Source: Oerskovia enterophila
GTDB taxonomy: Bacteria; Actinomycetota; Actinomycetes; Actinomycetales; Cellulomonadaceae
Assembly: GCF_001692445.1 (NCBI RefSeq)
Contig: NZ_MAQA01000033.1
Location: 1 to 55,511 of the forward strand
DNA: 55,511 nucleotides
Reading direction: 5' to 3'
A program made the position numbers and the translations under genes. The notes under the pieces were generated by a model that made no database searches, had not been told where the DNA came from, and saw nothing but the letters and a program-made list of their open reading frames with translations. Positions within the stretch are counted from its first letter, which is position 1. Every line of letters starts with the position of its first letter. Positions 14,975 to 23,049 of this stretch are shown piece after piece.

Positions 14975-15030
14975 CCGGGGGTGACGGCCCTGACCGCCGG
15001 GGGTGACGCACCCGGGTGCCGGGGGTGACG
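14975..15030 (+). repeat. Three CCGGGGGTGACG repeats at exact 22-bp intervals
   Basis: Copies start at 14975, 14997 and 15019. The first two are embedded in identical 18-bp blocks starting at the sigma partner's stop codon. Two helical turns separate the copies, which fits protein binding sites; the third copy overlaps the left arm of the terminator. Confidence 0.7.
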
Positions 15031-15060
15031 CGAGAGCGTTGCTCCCGGCACCTTTCTTTT
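15015..15060 (+). terminator. Intrinsic terminator with T-tract, end of the sigma operon
   Basis: GGTGCCGGG (15015-15023) pairs with CCCGGCACC (15044-15052), followed by TTTCTTTT. It is the only canonical T-tailed terminator I found in the window and isolates the ebo-type operon from the sigma unit. Confidence 0.8.
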
Positions 15061-15104: not shown

Positions 15105-15133
15105 TTGACCATCGACAAAAGGGGGGTTAGGGT
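15105..15133 (+). promoter_or_regulatory. Promoter of the ebo-type operon
   Basis: TTGACC (15105-15110), 17 bases, TAGGGT (15128-15133): the best promoter in the window. It lies in an unusually A+T-rich patch (TTTTGATTGACC and CGACAAAAGG); TTTTG and CAAAA form the ends of a 22-bp frame over the -35. Transcription would start near 15140, leaving a leader of about 145 bases. Confidence 0.7.
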
Positions 15134-15244
15134 CAGGCCACGGCCTCGGCCCGGACAGCAGGAGCACGTCGCGCAGCAGCGAGAGTGCGCCCACCGCCGG
15201 GCTCGCAGGCCCGTCGGGGGCGACGAGGCCCTCGGCTCGCCACA

Positions 15245-15267
15245 TCGACCCCGGTCCCCGGGGTCGA
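15245..15267 (+). promoter_or_regulatory. Hairpin in the ebo operon leader next to the Shine-Dalgarno
   Basis: TCGACCCCGG (15245-15254) pairs exactly with 15258-15267 around a 3-base loop. It ends seven bases before the AGGAG (15275-15279) of the first gene, so it could affect translation initiation. Confidence 0.4.
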
Positions 15268-15284
15268 CGGGACCAGGAGCGACG

Positions 15285-16505
15285 ATGCACCTTTCAGCCC
15301 ACCAGTCGACGTGGAACCACGGCCGCACCGGCATCTGGTTCGTCGGGGCCCGCGGGTCGGTCGCCACGACCGCGACCCTCGGCCTGGCAGCGATCGCCTC
15401 GGGGCTCTCCGCCCCCACCGGCTGCGTCACCGCGCAGGCCCCGCTCGACGACGTCGCCCTGCCGGCCTTCGCGGACCTCGTGGTGGGTGGCCACGACATC
15501 AGCGACACGCCCCTCGGCAAGAAGGCCGAGCAGCTCGTCGAGGCCGGCATGATCCCCTACCGCCTCCTCGAGGCGGTGCGTCCCCAGCTCGACGCGGTCG
15601 ACGCGGACATCCGCCCCGGCTACGACGCGGCCCACCGCTCGGGCTCCCAGGCCGCTGCGGCCGAGGCGCTCGCAGCCGACATCGTCGACTTCCGCGAGCG
15701 CCACGGCCTGGCCCGCGTCGTGGTCGTCGACCTCGCCTCGACCGAGCCGCTCCCGGCCCCGGCCCCCGAGCTCGAGGACCTGGACCTGCTGCGCGCGGCC
15801 CTGGAGGACCCCGAGCGCGAGGTCCTGCCCGCGAGCTCGGTCAACGCGTACGCGGCGCTCCTCGCGGGAGCCCCCTACGCGGGCTTCACGCCCTCGGCGA
15901 GCATGAACCTGCCCGCGCTGCACGCGCTCGCGGCCGAGCGTGGCGTGCCGTTCGCGGGTCAGGACGGCAAGACCGGGCAGACGTGGCTGCGCTCGGTCCT
16001 GGCACCGGCCATCACGGCCCGCGGCCTGCGGGTCCTGTCCTGGGCAGGCTCGAACCTGCTGGGCGGTGGCGACGGCGCGACGCTCGCGGACCCGCACGCT
16101 GTCCAGAGCAAGCTCGTGTCGAAGAACCGGGGCCTGCAGGACCTGACGGGCAGCACGGTCACCCCGCTGCACATCGACAACGTCCCGGACCTCGGCGACA
16201 TCAAGGTCGCGTGGGACCACATCCACATCGAGGGCTTCCTGGGCTCGCGCCTGACGCTCCAGACGACGTGGAGCGCGTACGACTCGATGCTCGCGGCGCC
16301 CCTCGTCCTGGACCTGGCGCGTCTCCTGGCGCTCGCCGACGCTGCGGGCCTGTCCGGTCCCGTGCCGGAGATGGGCTTCTTCTTCAAGGACCCGTGGGGC
16401 TCGGACGTGCACTCGTTCGCCGAGCAGTCCCGCGTGCTGGGCGTGTGGGCGCACCGGACGAGCGCGCAGGCGGACGCAGTTCAGGCAGGGGTCGACGAGC
16501 CGTGA
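15285..16505 (+). CDS. Inositol-3-phosphate synthase family protein, first gene of the ebo-type operon
   Basis: The 406-residue protein has the NAD-binding GARGSVATTA near the N-terminus and the Ino1 active-site segments GQDGKTGQTW (225-234, Lys229), SKNRGLQD and FFKDPWGSDVHSF. Ino1 enzymes cyclise glucose 6-phosphate to inositol 3-phosphate with bound NAD+. Here the gene heads an operon with EboC, EboA, EboB, EboE and an EboF-like enzyme, so it probably makes a cyclitol phosphate precursor in place of EboD, the dehydroquinate-synthase-like cyclase of other ebo clusters. The ATG at 15285 follows AGGAG. Its stop overlaps the next start as GTGA. The exact product could be a different cyclitol. 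Confidence 0.85.
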   Translation: MHLSAHQSTWNHGRTGIWFVGARGSVATTATLGLAAIASGLSAPTGCVTAQAPLDDVALPAFADLVVGGHDISDTPLGKKAEQLVEAGMIPYRLLEAVRPQLDAVDADIRPGYDAAHRSGSQAAAAEALAADIVDFRERHGLARVVVVDLASTEPLPAPAPELEDLDLLRAALEDPEREVLPASSVNAYAALLAGAPYAGFTPSASMNLPALHALAAERGVPFAGQDGKTGQTWLRSVLAPAITARGLRVLSWAGSNLLGGGDGATLADPHAVQSKLVSKNRGLQDLTGSTVTPLHIDNVPDLGDIKVAWDHIHIEGFLGSRLTLQTTWSAYDSMLAAPLVLDLARLLALADAAGLSGPVPEMGFFFKDPWGSDVHSFAEQSRVLGVWAHRTSAQADAVQAGVDEP

Positions 16506-17548
16506 CGCTGCGCGACTACCTCGACCTGGTCCGTGCTCCTGCGGTCCTGTCCGTGGTGGGGGACACCCTGGCCGGGGCGGCCGCGGGTGGGCGGCTGGGC
16601 TCGGCACGCACGGTGCGTGCCGGGGACGTGCGGGCGTGGCGGCTCGCGCTGCTGCCGCTGTCCTCGGCCTGCCTGTACGCGGGCGGCATGGCGCTCAACG
16701 ACTACGCGGACCGCGAGCTCGACGCGGTCGAGCGCCCCGAGCGCCCGCTGCCCTCGGGGCGCGTCTCGCCGGCCCAGGCGCTCGGCGTCGCGACGGGCCT
16801 CACGGCCGCGGGCCTGACGCTCGCGGCGGCCGGGGGAGGACGACGGTCGTTCGTCCTCGCGCTCCCGCTGGCGGCGAGCGTGTGGACGTACGACCTGGTG
16901 GCGAAGAACCACGCGTCCGGTCCGGTCGTCATGGCTGCCTGCCGCGGCCTCGACGTCCTCATGGGGGCGGGCGCCGGGAGGGTCCGCGCCGCGCTCCCGG
17001 CCGCGGCCGCGCTCACGGTGCACACCGCGGGCGTGACGGTCCTCTCGCGCGGCGAGGTCCACGGCACGACGCCGCCCGTCGCGGCCGCCGTGGCCGCGGG
17101 GACGGTCGGGGTCGCGGGCGCCGTGGCGGTCGGCGCGCTGCGGTCGCTGCGCTCCGGCCCGACGGCGGACCTCGCCTCGGCCGCAGCCCTCGCCCCGGTG
17201 GGTGGCTCGGCACGCCCGACGGCGGAGCCCGCCCTCGGGCGGTCCGGTGCGGGGCGGCGCGCACGCGCCGTCGTCCCGGCGCTCGCCGCGCTCGCGTCGG
17301 CCGGGGTCTACGCGGCCTCGTGCCTGCCGCAGCAGGCGCAGGCGGTCGGCGCGCCCGACGCCGCGAACGCGTTCGCGGCGACCAAGGCGGGCATCCGCTC
17401 GATGGTGCCGCTCCAGGCGGCGCTCGCCGCGCGGGGCGGGAGCCTGGGCTCGGTCGCGGTCCTCGCCGCGGTCGAGGTCGTGGGTCGCGCGCTGCGCGCC
17501 AGGAGCCGGCGCAGCACGAGCCCGAACCCGGGGCTGAGCGAGTCATGA
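16502..17548 (+). CDS. eboC: EboC-like UbiA-family prenyltransferase
   Basis: The 348-residue integral membrane protein has several hydrophobic helices and the Asp-rich UbiA motif NDYADRELDAVERPERPLPSG split at 66-86; a second motif YDLVAKN lies further on. UbiA enzymes attach a prenyl chain to an acceptor at the membrane. EboC is the UbiA member of ebo clusters and no acceptor is known. The GTG start overlaps the ino1 stop as GTGA and its own stop overlaps the next gene as ATGA, so the three are translationally coupled. Inference: it prenylates the cyclitol made by the upstream gene. An Ala-rich segment around residues 215-265 is less conserved in appearance. Confidence 0.85.
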   Translation: MTLRDYLDLVRAPAVLSVVGDTLAGAAAGGRLGSARTVRAGDVRAWRLALLPLSSACLYAGGMALNDYADRELDAVERPERPLPSGRVSPAQALGVATGLTAAGLTLAAAGGGRRSFVLALPLAASVWTYDLVAKNHASGPVVMAACRGLDVLMGAGAGRVRAALPAAAALTVHTAGVTVLSRGEVHGTTPPVAAAVAAGTVGVAGAVAVGALRSLRSGPTADLASAAALAPVGGSARPTAEPALGRSGAGRRARAVVPALAALASAGVYAASCLPQQAQAVGAPDAANAFAATKAGIRSMVPLQAALAARGGSLGSVAVLAAVEVVGRALRARSRRSTSPNPGLSES

Positions 17549-18501
17549 GCCCCTCGACCAGCCCCTCGACCAGCCGCTCCACCAGCCCCGGCGCACCACC
17601 GTTCACCCTCGGGTACGGCACCAACGGCTTCACCGACCACCCGCTCGACGTCACGCTCGACGTGCTCGCGCACGAGGGCTACGGTGCCGTGGCGCTGACG
17701 CTCGGGCACCCGCACCTGGACCCGTTCGCGGACGACGCAGACGTGCAGGTCGCGCGGCTGCGCGAGCGTCTCGACGACCTGGGCATGCGCGTGGTCGTCG
17801 AGACGGGCACGCGCTTCCTGCTCGACCCGTTCCGCAAGCACCACCCGACGTTCCTCGATCCCGACGAGGACCTCGCGGACGTCCGGGTCCGCTTCCTGTG
17901 CCGTGCGGTCGAGGTCGCGGCGGGCCTGCGCGCCGAGTGCGTGTCGTTCTTCTCGGGGGTCCTGCCCGCAGGAACGACGGCGGAGGCAGGCTGGGAGCGC
18001 CTGCTCGCCCGGGTGCCGCGCGTCGTGGCCCACGCCCGCGAGCACGGGGTCCGGATCGCGCTCGAGCCCGAGCCCGGGATGCTCGTCGAGACCGTGGGGG
18101 ACGCCCTGCGGCTGCGCGAGGACGTCGGGTCGCCCGCCGAGCTGGGCGTCACGGTGGACCTGGGGCACTGCGTGGTCGTCGAGCCCGACGGCGTGCGCGG
18201 CGCGCTGCTCGCCGCGGCGCCGCACCTGCTCAACGTGCAGGTCGACGACATGCGGCACACCGCGCACGAGCACCTGCCGTTCGGGGACGGAGAGCTCGAC
18301 CTGTCGCTCGCCCTCGGCACGCTCGGCGAGATCGGCTACACGGGCGTCGCAGCCGTCGAGCTGCCCCGCCACTCGTACGACGCCCCCGGGCTCGCGCACC
18401 GCAGCATGACCGCGATGACCGAGGCCTGGGCCGCGTGGAGCGCGACCGACCAGACCTCTCCGACGACCACCGCATCCGCACCCCAGGAGGCACTCCGATG
18501 A
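17545..18501 (+). CDS. Sugar phosphate isomerase/epimerase family TIM-barrel protein
   Basis: The 318-residue protein belongs to the AP-endonuclease-2/xylose-isomerase-like TIM barrels. After a Ser/Thr/Pro-rich N-terminal tail (about 1-22) it shows GYGTNGFTDH, the metal-ligand strands IALEPEPGMLVE and VTVDLGHCVV, then NVQVDDMRHTAHEHLPFGDGELDL and AAVELPRHSYDAPG. Such proteins isomerise or epimerise sugars or cyclitols (for example ketoses or inosose) using a divalent metal. It is distinct from EboE, also present, so the operon has two members of this fold. It overlaps both neighbours by 4 bases (ATGA). Acting on a product of the upstream Ino1 is an inference from position. Confidence 0.8.
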   Translation: MSPSTSPSTSRSTSPGAPPFTLGYGTNGFTDHPLDVTLDVLAHEGYGAVALTLGHPHLDPFADDADVQVARLRERLDDLGMRVVVETGTRFLLDPFRKHHPTFLDPDEDLADVRVRFLCRAVEVAAGLRAECVSFFSGVLPAGTTAEAGWERLLARVPRVVAHAREHGVRIALEPEPGMLVETVGDALRLREDVGSPAELGVTVDLGHCVVVEPDGVRGALLAAAPHLLNVQVDDMRHTAHEHLPFGDGELDLSLALGTLGEIGYTGVAAVELPRHSYDAPGLAHRSMTAMTEAWAAWSATDQTSPTTTASAPQEALR

Positions 18502-19292
18502 CCACCCCCGACCTGACCGCCGCACCGGGCGCCACAGCGACGGCGGGCCCGCCCGCAGCCGGTCACCCCGACGCCCTCGTGGGCCTGCTCACCGACGAGC
18601 AGGCCGCCTGGCTGGCCACGGCCTGCGGCGAGATCGCCGCGGACCCGGGCTCCGCCGTCGGGCACCTGGCACGGGCCGGGCGGGCCGTGGGACGCACGTC
18701 CCTCGACCCCGACCTGGACCCCGCCGGGGTCCTGCACGGGACGCTCGACGACGCCGCGCGCGCCCGCCTGGTCGTGGCGCTCGCGGACGCCCTGCCCGCC
18801 GACGGCGAGTCGCTCGCGGCACGCCTGACCGAGACCTACCAGCGCGGGGACACACCCGAGCGGCGCGGCGTGCTGCGCGGGCTCGACGCCCTCACGCTGG
18901 CCGGGCAGCCCGACGGCGCCCTGGCGCCCGCCGTGGTCTGCGCCGGGACGGCGCTCGCGGCCGACGCCCTGCGCGCCAACGACCAGAGCCTCGTGGCCGC
19001 CGCGGTCGGGCCGTTCGCGGCCGCGCACCTCGACGACCACGCCTGGCGCCACGCGGTCCTCAAGCTCGTCTTCATGGGCGTGAGCCTCGACGCGGTCGCC
19101 GCGCTCGACGAGCGCGCGGACGACGAGCTCGCGCGCATGGCCCGCGACTTCGCAGCCGAGCGTCGGGCCGCGGGGCGCGTCGTGCCCGACGACGTCGCCC
19201 GCATCGCACCCGAGGCGCCCGACAGGACCGGCGCCCCCACCCTGCCCACCGTGCCCACGACTTCTCACGCGAACCACAGCAAGGACGCCTGA
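18498..19292 (+). CDS. eboA: EboA domain-containing protein
   Basis: The 264-residue soluble, Ala-rich helical protein carries the EboA signature: TPERRGVLRGLDAL in the first half, a central DALRANDQSLVAAAVGPFAA and DDHAWRHAVLKLVFMGVSL from residue 179. EboA is the defining protein of ebo clusters; its biochemical role is unknown. In cyanobacteria ebo genes are needed to move a scytonemin precursor to the periplasm. The ATG has a good AGGAGG (18485-18490) and overlaps the preceding stop as ATGA; its own stop overlaps the next start as TGATG. The Ala/Thr/Pro-rich ends look disordered. Confidence 0.85.
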   Translation: MTTPDLTAAPGATATAGPPAAGHPDALVGLLTDEQAAWLATACGEIAADPGSAVGHLARAGRAVGRTSLDPDLDPAGVLHGTLDDAARARLVVALADALPADGESLAARLTETYQRGDTPERRGVLRGLDALTLAGQPDGALAPAVVCAGTALAADALRANDQSLVAAAVGPFAAAHLDDHAWRHAVLKLVFMGVSLDAVAALDERADDELARMARDFAAERRAAGRVVPDDVARIAPEAPDRTGAPTLPTVPTTSHANHSKDA

Positions 19293-20170
19293 TGCGCATC
19301 TTCGACCCCCACATCCACATGACCTCGCGCACGACCGACGACTACGAGGTCATGTACGCCGCGGGCGTGCGCGCCGTCGTCGAGCCCGCGTTCTGGCTCG
19401 GCCAGCCCCGCACGACCGTCGGGTCGTTCGTCGACTACTTCGACGCGCTGCTCGGCTGGGAGCGGTTCCGGGCCACGCAGTTCGGGATCCGCCACCACGC
19501 GACGATCGCCCTCAACCCCAAGGAGGCGAACGACCCGCGCTGCACCGAGGTGCTCGACGAGATCCCGCGCTACCTCGACAAGGACGGCGTGGTCGCGGTC
19601 GGCGAGGTCGGCTACGACTCCATGACCCCCGCCGAGGACGAGGCGTTCACGCGTCAGCTCGCCATGGCGATCGACGCGGCCCTCCCCGTCATGGTCCATA
19701 CCCCGCACCGCGACAAGCTCGTCGGGACCCACCGCACGCTCGACGTGGTGCGCGAGTCGGGGATCGCCCCCGGGATGGTCGTGGTCGACCACCTCAACGA
19801 GACCAACGTCGCGCTCGTCAAGGACGCCGGGGCATGGATGGGCTTCTCGGTCTACCCCGACACCAAGATGGACGAGCACCGCATGGTCTCGATCCTGCTC
19901 GAGCACGGCACCGATCGGGTCCTGGTGAACTCGGCCGCCGACTGGGGGCGCTCCGACCCCCTCAAGACGCTCAAGACCGGGCGCGCCATGCTCGCGGCCG
20001 GGTTCACCGACGACGAGGTCGACAAGGTCCTGTGGCGCAACCCCGTCGAGTTCTACGGCCAGTCCGGCAACCTGCTGCTCGACCCCGTGCCCGGGTTCGT
20101 CGAGGGCGAGGCGCCCGCGGCGAGCGCGAGCTTCGAGGGCAGCTCGGTGCTGCGCGGGGCACGGGTCTGA
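19292..20170 (+). CDS. eboB: TatD family metal-dependent hydrolase, EboB
   Basis: The 292-residue protein is an amidohydrolase-fold enzyme of TatD type. All expected metal ligands can be seen: HxH in DPHIHM (His7, His9), Glu105 in GEVGYD, His136 in VHTPH, His167 in DHLNE and Asp217 in SAADWG. EboB is the TatD member of ebo clusters; its substrate is unknown. It starts inside the stop of eboA (TGATG) with AAGGA ahead and its own stop overlaps eboE the same way. It could remove a protecting or carrier group from the ebo metabolite, but that is speculation. Confidence 0.85.
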   Translation: MRIFDPHIHMTSRTTDDYEVMYAAGVRAVVEPAFWLGQPRTTVGSFVDYFDALLGWERFRATQFGIRHHATIALNPKEANDPRCTEVLDEIPRYLDKDGVVAVGEVGYDSMTPAEDEAFTRQLAMAIDAALPVMVHTPHRDKLVGTHRTLDVVRESGIAPGMVVVDHLNETNVALVKDAGAWMGFSVYPDTKMDEHRMVSILLEHGTDRVLVNSAADWGRSDPLKTLKTGRAMLAAGFTDDEVDKVLWRNPVEFYGQSGNLLLDPVPGFVEGEAPAASASFEGSSVLRGARV

Positions 20171-21450
20171 TGCTGCTGTCCTACTGCACCAACGTCCACC
20201 CCGCCGAGGACCTCGACGGGGTGGTCGAGCAGCTCGCCCGGTACGCCGGGCCCGTGCGCGAGGCCGCAGGGCTCGACGTGCTCGGGGTCGGGCTGTGGCT
20301 GCCCGCCTCGCTCGCGCACCGGCTCTCGGCCTCGCCGCGCGCGGCCGACGACATGGCCCGGCTGCGGGCCGCGCTCGACGAGCACGGGCTGCAGGTGCAC
20401 ACGCTCAACGCGTTCCCCTACGGCGGGTTCCACGACGACGTCGTCAAGCTCGCGGTCTACTCGCCCACGTGGGCCGACGCCGAGCGGCTCGCCTACACGC
20501 TCGAGTGCGCCGAGGTCCTCGCGGCCCTCCTGCCCGACGGCGTGGACGGGTCCATCTCGACGCTCCCGCTCGCGTGGCGCGAGCCGGGCGGGGAGCCCTG
20601 GTCGCCCGCGCAGGACGCGATCGCGACCCGGGCGTTCGAGGAGCTCTCGGACGGGCTGCGCGACCTCGCGGCCCGCACGGGCAAGGTCGTGCGCGTCGCG
20701 GTCGAGCCCGAGCCCGGCTGCGTGCTCGACACGGTCGAGGACGTCGTGACCTGGCTCGAGGCACGTACCGGCGGGGCGGGCGAGGCCGAGGCGGAGCGCC
20801 CGGGGCGTGTCGGGGGCATCGACCCCGCGTTCGTCGGGGTCTGCCTCGACACGTGCCACCTCGCGGTCTCGTTCGCCGACCCGGCCGCGGCCGTCGCGCG
20901 GATCACGGGGGCCGGGCTGCGCGTGGTCAAGGTGCAGGCCTCGGCCGCGCTCCACGTGGCCGAGCCGTCGGCACCCGAGGCGCGTGCCGCCGTCGGGCAG
21001 TTCGTCGAGAAGCGCTACATCCACCAGGTGCGCGAGCTCGCCCCGAGCGGCGACGTCCTGCCCGTCGACGACCTGCCCGACGCGCTGGGCGACGGTGACG
21101 CGCTGCCCGGGCTGCCGGGGGACGGCCCCTGGCGCGTGCACTTCCACGTGCCCCTGCACCACGAGCCCGCCGCACCCCTGACCGCGACGACCGACGTGCT
21201 GCGCGAGGCCGTCGAGGCCGTGCGCGCAGCGCCCCACGGCGACGAGGCGCACCTCGACGTCGAGACCTACACGTGGGCCGTGCTGCCGCCCGACTCGCCG
21301 GCGTTCGGTTCTGCCGGGTCGGTCGAGCCGCTCGTGGGCGGTATCGCCGCCGAGCTGCGCTGGGCCACCGACCATCTGCTCACCCCCGGTGCTGCCCCCG
21401 GCCCCGTGGAGACCGTGACCATCCCCGCACCCTCAGGAGTCCCCGCATGA
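20170..21450 (+). CDS. eboE: Metabolite traffic protein EboE, TIM-barrel family
   Basis: The 426-residue protein begins MLLSYCTNVHPAEDLDGV, as EboE proteins do, and continues as a sugar-isomerase-like TIM barrel: LGVGLWLPASLAHRL, VHTLNAFPYGGFHDDVVK, VAVEPEPGCVLDT, VGVCLDTCHLAV, HFHVPLHHEP and a C-terminal HLDVETYTW. Potential metal ligands are the Glu, Asp, His and Glu in these strands. EboE is annotated as a metabolite traffic protein on the basis of the ebo cluster, not of an assayed reaction. It overlaps EboB (TGATG) and the next gene (ATGA). An insertion rich in Gly/Glu near residues 199-214 is atypical. Confidence 0.85.
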   Translation: MLLSYCTNVHPAEDLDGVVEQLARYAGPVREAAGLDVLGVGLWLPASLAHRLSASPRAADDMARLRAALDEHGLQVHTLNAFPYGGFHDDVVKLAVYSPTWADAERLAYTLECAEVLAALLPDGVDGSISTLPLAWREPGGEPWSPAQDAIATRAFEELSDGLRDLAARTGKVVRVAVEPEPGCVLDTVEDVVTWLEARTGGAGEAEAERPGRVGGIDPAFVGVCLDTCHLAVSFADPAAAVARITGAGLRVVKVQASAALHVAEPSAPEARAAVGQFVEKRYIHQVRELAPSGDVLPVDDLPDALGDGDALPGLPGDGPWRVHFHVPLHHEPAAPLTATTDVLREAVEAVRAAPHGDEAHLDVETYTWAVLPPDSPAFGSAGSVEPLVGGIAAELRWATDHLLTPGAAPGPVETVTIPAPSGVPA

Positions 21451-22853
21451 AGCCCGTGCTGCTGCTCGACGTCGTCGGGCTCACCGAGAAGGCCCTCGCC
21501 CACATGCCCCGCCTGCGCCAGATGGCCGCGGGCGGCTGGCAGACCCAGCTCGCGACCGTGCTGCCCGCGGTCACGTGCAGCGTGCAGGCGACCATGATGA
21601 CGGGCCTCGCGCCCGCCCAGCACGGGGCCGTGGGCAACGGCTGGTACTTCCGCGAGCTCGGCGAGGTGTTCCTGTGGCGCCAGCACAACAAGCTCGTCGA
21701 GGGCGAGAAGATCTGGGAGGCCGCGCGCCGCTCGAACCCCGACCACCGGACCGCGAACGTCTGCTGGTGGTACGCCATGGGCGCCACGACCGACGTGACC
21801 GTGACCCCTCGGCCGATCTACCACGCCGACGGGCGCAAGTCGCCCGACGCGTACATCCGCCCGCCCGCGCTGCACGACGAGCTCACGGGCCGCTTCGGCG
21901 AGTTCCCCCTGTTCACCTACTGGGGCCCGACCGCCGCGATCGCGTCCTCGGCCTGGATCGTCGACGCGACCCGCCACGTCCTGCGCACGCACTCGCCCGA
22001 GCTGACCATGGCCTACGTGCCGCACCTCGACTACGACCTGCAGCGGTTCGGCCCCGACTCTCCCGAGGCCGACGCCGCGGCCGCCGAGCTCGACACGGTC
22101 CTAGCCCCGCTGCTCGACGACGCGGCCAACAACGGGATCGCGGTCGTCGTGGTCTCCGAGTACGGCATCGCCGAGGCGAACCGGCCCGTGCACCTCAACC
22201 GCATCCTGCGCCGCGAGGGCCTGCTCGAGGTCTACGTCCAGGACGGCAAGGAGCAGCTCGACCCGTGGACATCCAAGGCGTTCGCGGTCGCCGACCACCA
22301 GGTCGCGCACGTCTACGTCGACGACCCCTCGCGCCTCGCGCGCGTCGCCGACCTGCTGCGGGCCGTGCCCGGCGTCGACGAGGTCCTCGACCGCGAGGCG
22401 CAGGCCCGCTACGGGCTCGACCATGCGCGCTCGGGCGATCTCGTGGTCGTCGCCGAGCCGGGCGCCTGGTTCACCTACTACTTCTGGCTCGACGACGCCC
22501 GCGCGCCCGAGTACGCACGCGGCGTCGACATCCACCGCAAGCCGGGCTACGACCCGGCCGAGCTGTTCTTCGACCCCGCCGACCCCCTGGCCAAGGCCAA
22601 GGCGGGGCTCAACCTCGTCAAGAAGAAGGTCGGGCTGCGCTACGCCATGAGCACCGTGCCGCTCGACGCGTCCTACGTGCGTGGCACGCACGGTCGGCTG
22701 CCCGACTCGGCGGCCGACACCCCGCTCATCCTGTGCTCGGAGGCCGAGATCCCGGCGTCGGTCGCGGCGCTGGTCGAGCGCGGGGGACAGGTGCCCGCCG
22801 CGGCGATCAAGGGGCTCGTGCTCGAGATGCAGAACCTGGGCGTCAAGGTGTAG
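21447..22853 (+). CDS. EboF-like nucleotide pyrophosphatase/phosphodiesterase (alkaline phosphatase superfamily)
   Basis: The 468-residue protein has the alkaline phosphatase/NPP fold: metal ligand Asp8 (LLDVVG), predicted Thr43 nucleophile in LPAVTCSVQATMMTG, HLDYD at 193-197 and DHQVAH near 281-286. The usual SDHG segment reads SEYG (237-240), so the Asp-His metal pair is replaced. It is the last gene, coupled by ATGA with AGGAG at 21435-21439. In ebo clusters the EboF member is a phosphatase-like protein; here it could release phosphate or nucleotide from the final product. No signal peptide is seen, so it should be cytoplasmic. Confidence 0.75.
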   Translation: MKPVLLLDVVGLTEKALAHMPRLRQMAAGGWQTQLATVLPAVTCSVQATMMTGLAPAQHGAVGNGWYFRELGEVFLWRQHNKLVEGEKIWEAARRSNPDHRTANVCWWYAMGATTDVTVTPRPIYHADGRKSPDAYIRPPALHDELTGRFGEFPLFTYWGPTAAIASSAWIVDATRHVLRTHSPELTMAYVPHLDYDLQRFGPDSPEADAAAAELDTVLAPLLDDAANNGIAVVVVSEYGIAEANRPVHLNRILRREGLLEVYVQDGKEQLDPWTSKAFAVADHQVAHVYVDDPSRLARVADLLRAVPGVDEVLDREAQARYGLDHARSGDLVVVAEPGAWFTYYFWLDDARAPEYARGVDIHRKPGYDPAELFFDPADPLAKAKAGLNLVKKKVGLRYAMSTVPLDASYVRGTHGRLPDSAADTPLILCSEAEIPASVAALVERGGQVPAAAIKGLVLEMQNLGVKV

Positions 22854-22885: not shown

Positions 22886-22923
22886 TCAGGACGAGCGTGA
22901 ACATGGGGCCACGCTCGTCCTGA
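22886..22923. terminator. Hairpin after the ebo-type operon
   Basis: TCAGGACGAGCGTG (22886-22899) pairs exactly with 22910-22923 around a 10-base loop, 32 bases past the last stop. It is the first of three stacked hairpins between this operon and the convergent protease gene. Confidence 0.6.
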
Positions 22924-22959
22924 ACGGTCCCTCGGTGTCTTCTGGACCCGGGGACGCCA

Positions 22960-22989
22960 GAAGGGCGCGACCCGTGGGTCGCGCCCTTC
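22960..22989. terminator. Second hairpin in the convergent intergenic region
   Basis: GAAGGGCGCGACCC (22960-22973) pairs with 22976-22989; the two-base gap means the top pair opens in practice. The AAGGG/CCCTT ends give modest A/T tails in both directions. Confidence 0.7.
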
Positions 22990-23011
22990 GTCATGCACGC
23001 TGCTCCGGGGA

Positions 23012-23049
23012 TCAGGGTCGGCGTGACCGCGAGGTCACGCCGACCCTGA
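23012..23049. terminator. Third hairpin, 17-bp stem with GCGA loop, for the protease gene
   Basis: A perfect 17-bp stem (23012-23028 with 23033-23049) is capped by GCGA, a stable GNRA-type loop. It lies 24 bases beyond the protease stop on the minus strand and most likely ends that transcript. Confidence 0.75.

Follow-up and report, generated by a model that had tools for sequence, protein, structure and literature searches.

An ebo operon of Oerskovia enterophila with a myo-inositol-3-phosphate synthase in the position of EboD represents a second type of ebo cluster

A seven-gene ebo operon in Oerskovia enterophila

In a 55,511-nucleotide stretch of the Oerskovia enterophila genome (contig NZ_MAQA01000033.1 of RefSeq assembly GCF_001692445.1, positions 1 to 55,511; here, the window), seven plus-strand genes are arranged head to tail between positions 15285 and 22853, with neighboring genes overlapping by 1 or 4 bases. 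They encode, in this order, a myo-inositol-3-phosphate synthase (Ino1), EboC, a TIM-barrel epimerase-like protein (here, the TIM protein), EboA, EboB, EboE, and EboF. Gene calls, Pfam, and NCBIfam confirm the coupling, the overlaps, and the families given in the original prediction, which had been made from the sequence alone. That prediction had ino1 begin at a TTG at 15105; the start is corrected to the ATG at 15285, because an AGGAG lies directly upstream of it and the family-profile match begins at 15294.

15285..16505, plus strand: ino1 (ebo type), ATG start, 406 amino acids (aa); PF07994/PF01658, myo-inositol-3-phosphate synthase of the archaeal/eukaryotic kind
16502..17548, plus strand: eboC, GTG start, 348 aa; UbiA-family prenyltransferase (SCO3242 family) with an NDxxDxxxD motif
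17545..18501, plus strand: gene for the TIM-barrel 3-epimerase-like protein, ATG start, 318 aa; PF01261
18498..19292, plus strand: eboA, ATG start, 264 aa; all-helical protein, NF035938
19292..20170, plus strand: eboB, ATG start, 292 aa; TatD-like metal-dependent hydrolase, PF01026
20170..21450, plus strand: eboE, ATG start, 426 aa; TIM-barrel protein, NF035939
21447..22853, plus strand: eboF, ATG start, 468 aa; type I phosphodiesterase/nucleotide pyrophosphatase family, PF01663

The ebo cluster, eboABCDEF, is known from eustigmatophyte plastids, Bacteroidota, and Cyanobacteria (PMC5133447, PMC6282210). In published accounts, EboD is presumed to convert sedoheptulose 7-phosphate to a cyclitol, and EboC to attach a prenyl group to some acceptor (PMC5133447, PMC6282210). 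As in clusters of this type, homologs of EboA, EboB, EboE, and EboF and a probable EboC stand in one operon in the window; unlike them, the window operon lacks EboD, with neither a PF01761 domain nor a match to the EboD profile described below, and has Ino1 and the TIM protein, in the order Ino1-C-TIM-A-B-E-F. Judged by gene content, Ino1 and the 3-epimerase-like protein stand in the position of EboD. No report of an Ino1-type ebo cluster was found in the open-access literature, and within the literature searched it is a hitherto undescribed form of the known cluster.

Distribution of Ino1 and EboD among ebo loci

Proteins with an EboA domain were found in 18 of 396 genomes of a phylum sample and in 47 of 396 genomes of an order sample. 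Neighborhoods were read in 60 of the 63 EboA-positive genomes (G452, G492, and G562 were left out), which gave 61 mapped loci including the window. To these we added 80 named loci, those ranked highest among 590 confirmed in an EboB search of a genome collection, which lean to close relatives, and 17 plasmid loci hand-chosen for variety from records matched by EboB (51) or by EboE (48). The resulting 158 loci are mostly actinobacterial and are not independent; two pairs from the same genomes (L072/L232 and L110/L175) were kept among them, and these duplicates were removed, together with nine EboD loci, for an analysis of neighboring genes in 147 loci. EboD was identified with a profile built from eight of the nine EboD sequences, an earlier seed of actinobacterial AroB having found no EboD.

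Ino1 is present in 124 of the 158 loci and EboD in 9, while no locus has both; neither is present in 25, of which 11 lie at a contig end. The prediction that Ino1 holds EboD's place is thus supported, and an eboD beside eboA with ino1 merely adjacent was not found in the loci read. Loci L054 to L113 gave no match to the EboD profile. An eboD elsewhere in the genome of the window was considered and rejected: the only strong PF01761 match in that genome is an AroB-like gene on another contig, outside ebo, and a further match falls below the cut-off.

Few of the 61 mapped loci depart from the order Ino1-EboC-TIM-EboA-EboB-EboE-EboF; Ino1 is present in 54 and EboD in none. Such recurrence across Actinomycetota, with Ino1 in this many of the mapped loci, shows that the operon is not a chance arrangement. 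The Ino1-containing ebo cluster is a complete operon of a second, general type. Among the genomes of the phylum sample that belong to the window's order and class, PF07994 is matched above the cut-off in exactly the 12 EboA-positive genomes, each time at the ebo locus. Away from contig ends, 14 loci lack Ino1; in the 13 corresponding genomes that were searched, 11 carry an ebo-type Ino1 elsewhere (at least 516 bits). EboC, TIM, or EboA stands beside most of these distant genes, which suggests that the genomes concerned have a second ebo cluster. The Ino1-less Streptomyces loci were rejected as an exception to the rule on the strength of these 11 genomes.

Three observations on single loci may be added. 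(i) In a genome of the same genus (L097, G616), the ebo-type Ino1 is in two pieces (167 and 432 bits), perhaps by a frameshift or an assembly error. (ii) EboC and EboE are in pieces at L070 (G279), with no match to Ino1 or TIM; this locus is apparently decayed or badly assembled. (iii) Saccharomonospora has been counted among the ebo genomes in an account in which EboD is described in general (PMC9235831); the Saccharomonospora loci L172 and L191 are of the Ino1 type.

The ebo-linked Ino1 and the housekeeping Ino1

The window Ino1 matches PF07994 (172.9 bits, E = 1.6e-50) and PF01658 (99.2 bits, E = 1.9e-28), both above the cut-off, and reaches 20 bits with the mycothiol-type model TIGR03450 (cut-off 638). 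For a profile of 27 ebo-linked Ino1 sequences, the best match in the PDB is the myo-inositol-1-phosphate synthase of Archaeoglobus fulgidus (1u1i, 365 bits). Far weaker is the match to the five-membered-cyclitol-phosphate synthase 6k96 (84 bits), presumably Ari2, an Ino1-related enzyme of secondary metabolism; 1gr0, which we take to be the Ino1 of Mycobacterium tuberculosis, reaches 74 bits. The match to the A. fulgidus enzyme covers nearly the whole length and includes a common set of Asn and Lys residues. K280, K368, and N257 of the window Ino1 align with the residues altered in the A. fulgidus structures 3qvw, 3qvx, and 3qw2, each of which differs from 1u1i by one substitution (Lys to Ala in the first two, Asn to Ala in the third), and N257, K276, K280, K307, and K368 are invariant in 122 of 122 ebo-linked Ino1 sequences (two of the 124 were too short and were left out). 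In contrast to the A. fulgidus enzyme, the window Ino1 belongs to an ebo operon and to a branch of its own: in a tree made by a quick method, with A. fulgidus on a long branch, 46 ebo-type Ino1 sequences of Actinomycetota group together (SH-aLRT 99) and are separate from 12 housekeeping Ino1 sequences of the phylum (12 of the 30 fetched). Three genomes (G051, G075, and G097) carry both kinds.

The same holds for the genome of the window, where a second, canonical Ino1 lies on another contig (C18:30686-31747; 702 bits with TIGR03450). The check for a second ino1 proposed with the original prediction is thus positive, and the window Ino1 was rejected as the general inositol synthase of the genome. 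The canonical enzyme shares the superfamily and the expected reaction with the ebo-linked one. Actinobacteria use inositol for mycothiol and phosphatidylinositol, and given this demand, Ino1 might supply ordinary inositol and simply ride along, with EboC and the other proteins acting on something else. Two ebo genomes without an ebo-type Ino1 would fit this explanation. However, it is opposed by the separate canonical Ino1, by the restriction of above-cut-off PF07994 matches to ebo loci among the phylum-sample genomes of the window's order and class, and by the exclusion of EboD, which is not expected of a mere supply gene; we regard it as improbable.

The shared core genes

EboA and EboE are matched by their NCBIfam models (NF035938, 143 bits, cut-off 50; NF035939, 415 bits, cut-off 250). 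EboC exceeds the cut-off of the SCO3242 family model NF045897 (305.8 bits, cut-off 260) and falls below that of the EboC model NF035940 (146.6 bits, cut-off 250); its gene stands among other ebo genes, and the NDxxDxxxD motif is kept in 143 of 148 EboC sequences. EboB and EboF match no NCBIfam ebo model and were assigned by homology. EboB, a PF01026 protein, is 37 to 72% identical to EboB of 13 other loci, with 50 invariant columns, and EboF matches PF01663 (E = 1.4e-61). Profiles made from actinobacterial sequences match EboB of the nine EboD-type loci (247 to 447 bits) and EboF in eight of these nine (571 to 658 bits).

In a Foldseek comparison with known folds, the EboA model, which consists of helical repeats, reaches a best E value of 0.39. 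The nearest solved UbiA relatives of EboC are chlorophyll synthase and digeranylgeranylglyceryl phosphate synthase (PDB 6m31), a weak match of 24 bits. The latter enzyme prenylates the hydroxyl of a phosphorylated polyol. A gene resembling those for polyprenyl synthetases lies no more than 7 kb from ebo in 19 of the 147 loci, its NCBIfam matches all falling below the cut-offs.

The TIM protein as a companion of Ino1

The TIM protein (PF01261, E = 1e-35) is present in 122 of the 124 Ino1 loci and in none of the nine EboD loci. It is fused to EboA in 28 of the 141 loci that hold both, and a chance insertion of its gene was rejected on account of these fusions. Actinobacterial TIM-EboA fusions were mentioned earlier, with data not shown (PMC5133447).

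The structural model of the TIM protein (pLDDT 93) is best matched by D-tagatose 3-epimerase (E = 2.4e-16) and by the L-ribulose-5-phosphate 3-epimerase UlaE, with which it shares the fold at about 20% identity. All 25 sequences compared have E174, D205, H208, H241, H243, and E272. In the D-tagatose 3-epimerase family, the metal is bound by two Glu residues, an Asp, and a His, and the invariant Glu, Asp, and His residues are presumably of the kind that forms this metal site. The original prediction had assigned to this protein, as an extra isomerase, the tailoring of the cyclitol ring; its association with the Ino1 type and its epimerase fold agree with this role, while ring tailoring as such is a conjecture.

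EboD-type and Ino1-type loci in other phyla

The nine EboD loci belong to Deinococcus (two), Ketogulonicigenium, Azospirillum, Mycetohabitans, Salipiger, Roseivivax, Aureibacter, and Gloeothece, and each has a gene annotated as 3-dehydroquinate synthase. With EboE as the anchor, 19 genomes of the phylum sample were found, 18 of which are those with EboA. The nineteenth, actinomycete G381, has the order EboD-EboB-EboE-EboC-EboF without Ino1, TIM, or EboA, and it is absent from the 89 genomes of this sample with a PF07994 match. Anchoring on EboA disfavors EboD clusters without EboA, of which G381 is the only case in the phylum sample.

The original prediction looked no further than actinobacteria. 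The type is confirmed, but this range is too narrow, since Ino1-type clusters also occur in haloarchaea and Gemmatimonadota. Plasmids of the haloarchaea Halobaculum, Natronococcus, and Halocatena carry EboB, two TIM proteins, a UbiA protein, Ino1, and EboF, and a plasmid of Gemmatirosa (Gemmatimonadota) carries EboE, EboB, EboF, EboC, Ino1, and TIM. Thus, ebo clusters are spread over bacteria, algal plastids (PMC5133447), and, from the present data, haloarchaea.

Two further gene associations were seen. Plasmids of Methylobacterium and Roseomonas (L263, L264, and L266) have an Ino1 of a non-ebo branch clustered with a TIM protein (256 to 264 bits with the ebo TIM profile), and in Roseomonas the cluster also includes genes annotated as YcaO, PIG-L deacetylase, glycosyltransferase, and Gfo/Idh; this suggests another pathway with Ino1 and a TIM protein. 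The EboD-type loci of Mycetohabitans, Aureibacter, and Gloeothece (L123, L126, and L127) have in common an annotated ferritin-like protein, which in L123 shows weak similarity to VioB, and a nearby hypothetical protein of about 590 to 675 aa, so a common pathway is possible.

Exchange between Ino1 and EboD

A tree of 37 EboB sequences shows three changes between the Ino1 and the EboD state, and monophyly of the Ino1 type is rejected (p-AU = 2.6e-7): the EboB of actinobacteria stands beside that of Azospirillum and Mycetohabitans (support 85/81), and that of Gemmatirosa stands beside Deinococcus (100/100). The EboF tree has two changes and likewise rejects a single Ino1 clade (p-AU = 0.029). 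These comparisons make more than one exchange between Ino1 and EboD likely. The original prediction had stated that Ino1 has replaced EboD; repeated switches are seen, whereas the EboB, EboC, and EboF trees are unrooted and do not show the direction of replacement.

A candidate pathway to a cyclitol lipid

In the known type of cluster, EboD, a member of the dehydroquinate-synthase superfamily, is thought to be the cyclitol maker, and in the second type Ino1, of an unrelated fold, would take over this role. That two unrelated enzymes, both cyclitol synthases, alternate at one position implies a product based on a cyclitol. Such an exchange would be expected of a product that has a cyclitol core and whose exact make can vary. 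We consider it fairly probable that, in the second type of ebo operon, the dedicated Ino1 makes a cyclitol from which the shared EboABCEF core builds a membrane-anchored cyclitol lipid, every reaction and the product being deduced from sequence. Ino1, with its active-site residues intact, would convert glucose 6-phosphate to a cyclitol phosphate, inositol 3-phosphate, and the TIM protein may modify the ring or an oxidized form of it. EboC, as a UbiA-type membrane prenyltransferase, would add a prenyl chain to the cyclitol or its phosphate; EboF would remove the phosphate or open a diphosphate or phosphodiester, and EboB and EboE could carry out further hydrolysis or isomerization, while EboA may hold the proteins together. 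The resulting membrane-anchored cyclitol lipid would function on the outer side of the membrane. Open-access literature on prenyl-inositols was searched, and nothing relevant was found.

Several points weigh against this interpretation. Most loci come from actinobacteria, and the loci are not independent of one another. The profile with which EboD was sought was itself built from eight of the nine EboD sequences, and two ebo genomes (G454 and G782) lack an ebo-type Ino1. EboA and EboE are unrecognizable in the haloarchaeal ebo loci, and one of the four, that of Haladaptatus, is similar but has no Ino1 in the stretch read. Two Ino1 genes of Halomarina, close to the haloarchaeal ebo Ino1, are not next to ebo genes: one has glycosyltransferase genes around it, the other is in an unannotated record, and no EboB match is near either; recruitment of Ino1 into the haloarchaeal clusters may therefore have been separate. 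The EboC and EboF trees need just two switches, and the EboC tree is compatible with a single Ino1 clade (p-AU = 0.44). In the chemistry, Ino1 keeps its phosphate. EboD-type cyclases lose that of their substrate (PMC5133447), and the two first products therefore differ. Furthermore, EboC-like enzymes of marine bacteria are described as preferentially farnesylating, with 8-HQA, an aromatic compound, modeled as the acceptor (PMC9235831).

As to the use of the product, the original prediction had considered a lipid-linked cyclitol carrier, and a lipid carrier with a cyclitol head has been proposed for scytonemin export in Nostoc (PMC6282210). By analogy, a lipid-linked cyclitol carrier might move a small molecule across the membrane in actinobacteria as well, with a cargo other than scytonemin. 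The scytonemin monomer is cytoplasmic in Nostoc ebo mutants and periplasmic in a scyE mutant (PMC6282210), which favors transport, and the EboABCEF core is common to the window and the known type. On the other hand, the intergenic gaps in most of the 61 mapped loci are too small for a transporter gene, genes resembling those for ABC sugar transporters (recognized by eye) lie near some loci only (clusters of 23 and 19 of 147), and, according to the Nostoc report, a lipid-conjugated monomer was not found (PMC6282210). We regard transport by such a carrier as possible, though doubtful.

The enzyme swap in one slot offers comparative evidence for a cyclitol core of the ebo product. It also suggests that actinobacteria start from ordinary inositol 3-phosphate, a compound obtainable for EboC assays.

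Association with GSDH beta-propeller proteins

The commonest neighbor family of the actinobacterial ebo clusters occurs in 62 of the 147 loci. Its representative is a large protein, apparently secreted as judged by eye, with glucose/sorbosone dehydrogenase (GSDH), PKD, CBM6, ThuA, and 3-keto-disaccharide-hydrolase domains. The association extends to whole genomes. In the order sample, at least two matches to PF07995, the GSDH family, are present in 45 of 46 EboA-positive genomes versus 29 of 346 EboA-negative ones (Fisher test, 4e-38), and at least three in 36 of 46 versus 3 of 346. Matches were counted up to five per genome, and PF07995 is the sole family tested for this association. The 392 genomes compared are assumed to be the order sample less four, G780 being one of the four, because its ebo stretch has GSDH and it would therefore have been listed. 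Within eight families (38 EboA-positive and 143 EboA-negative genomes), the observed sum was not reached in any of 200000 permutations; this test was made without families f77 and f90 (eight EboA-positive genomes and no EboA-negative genome with a listed match), without three listed but match-less genomes of the eight families (G139, G307, and G408), and without 130 unlisted, match-less genomes lacking a family assignment. General sugar metabolism may explain part of the association. No paper joining GSDH with ebo was found in the open-access literature.

Six GSDH genes were found in the genome of the window; five encode large multidomain proteins, and ThuA is present in four of these. One region (contig C35, 19000-52000; L297 and L298) encodes three giant ThuA-GSDH-PKD-CBM6 proteins together with a Gfo/Idh/MocA oxidoreductase.

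These data suggest that ebo may serve extracytoplasmic beta-propeller oxidoreductases, of which ScyE is perhaps another; we assume GSDH proteins and ScyE both to be beta-propellers, and homology between them is not claimed. ScyE has been proposed to dimerize the scytonemin monomer (PMC6282210). The ebo product could accordingly be a prenylated cyclitol that acts as a cofactor or electron carrier for propeller oxidoreductases (GSDH/ThuA and ScyE) and not as a cargo carrier, which is possible, though we doubt it. In its favor are the PF07995 enrichment, which persists within the eight families, the GSDH propeller found by profile search in 64 of 161 ebo stretches, the six GSDH genes noted above, and a gene of the ScyD/ScyE family directly 5' of ino1 on a plasmid of Streptomyces sp. 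NBC_00019 (L128:4079-5278). All Nostoc ebo mutants accumulate the scytonemin monomer, and the authors name a cofactor as one option (PMC6282210). However, the localization of the monomer in the Nostoc mutants favors transport, association is not function, and 97 of the 161 stretches are without GSDH, including the window, where the propeller profile found none, the nine EboD-type loci, the four haloarchaeal loci, Gemmatirosa, and G381.

It is rather unlikely, in our estimate, that Ino1 and EboD are interchangeable for the reason that the product is a prenylated cyclitol serving outer-face propeller oxidoreductases (those with GSDH, ThuA, and 3-keto-disaccharide-hydrolase domains and, in cyanobacteria, ScyE). 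If this is true, ebo makes a hitherto unrecognized lipid cofactor or redox carrier for extracellular oxidation in bacteria and perhaps haloarchaea. The link to sugar-oxidizing propellers provides a physiological handle on ebo that is independent of scytonemin.

Other dehydrogenase genes were seen at two loci: in Salipiger, a quinoprotein dehydrogenase (PF01011) follows eboB (L124:10418-12565), and in Natronococcus, an annotated PQQ-dependent sugar dehydrogenase begins at the edge of the stretch (L122, from 16645).

Boundaries of the operon

A scan for sigma-70 promoters at the operon found none. Just 5' of it, between 12693 and 14971 of the window, lie a gene for a sigma-70 family factor and a gene without a Pfam match. 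The operon itself is bordered by two features.

15014..15053, plus strand: terminator-like hairpin 5' of the operon (1 found versus 0.3 expected in shuffled sequences)
22886..23049, no strand assigned: three perfect inverted repeats (arms of 14, 14, and 17 bp) between eboF and a convergent peptidase gene, at the end of the operon

The convergent gene beyond the repeats encodes a subtilase.

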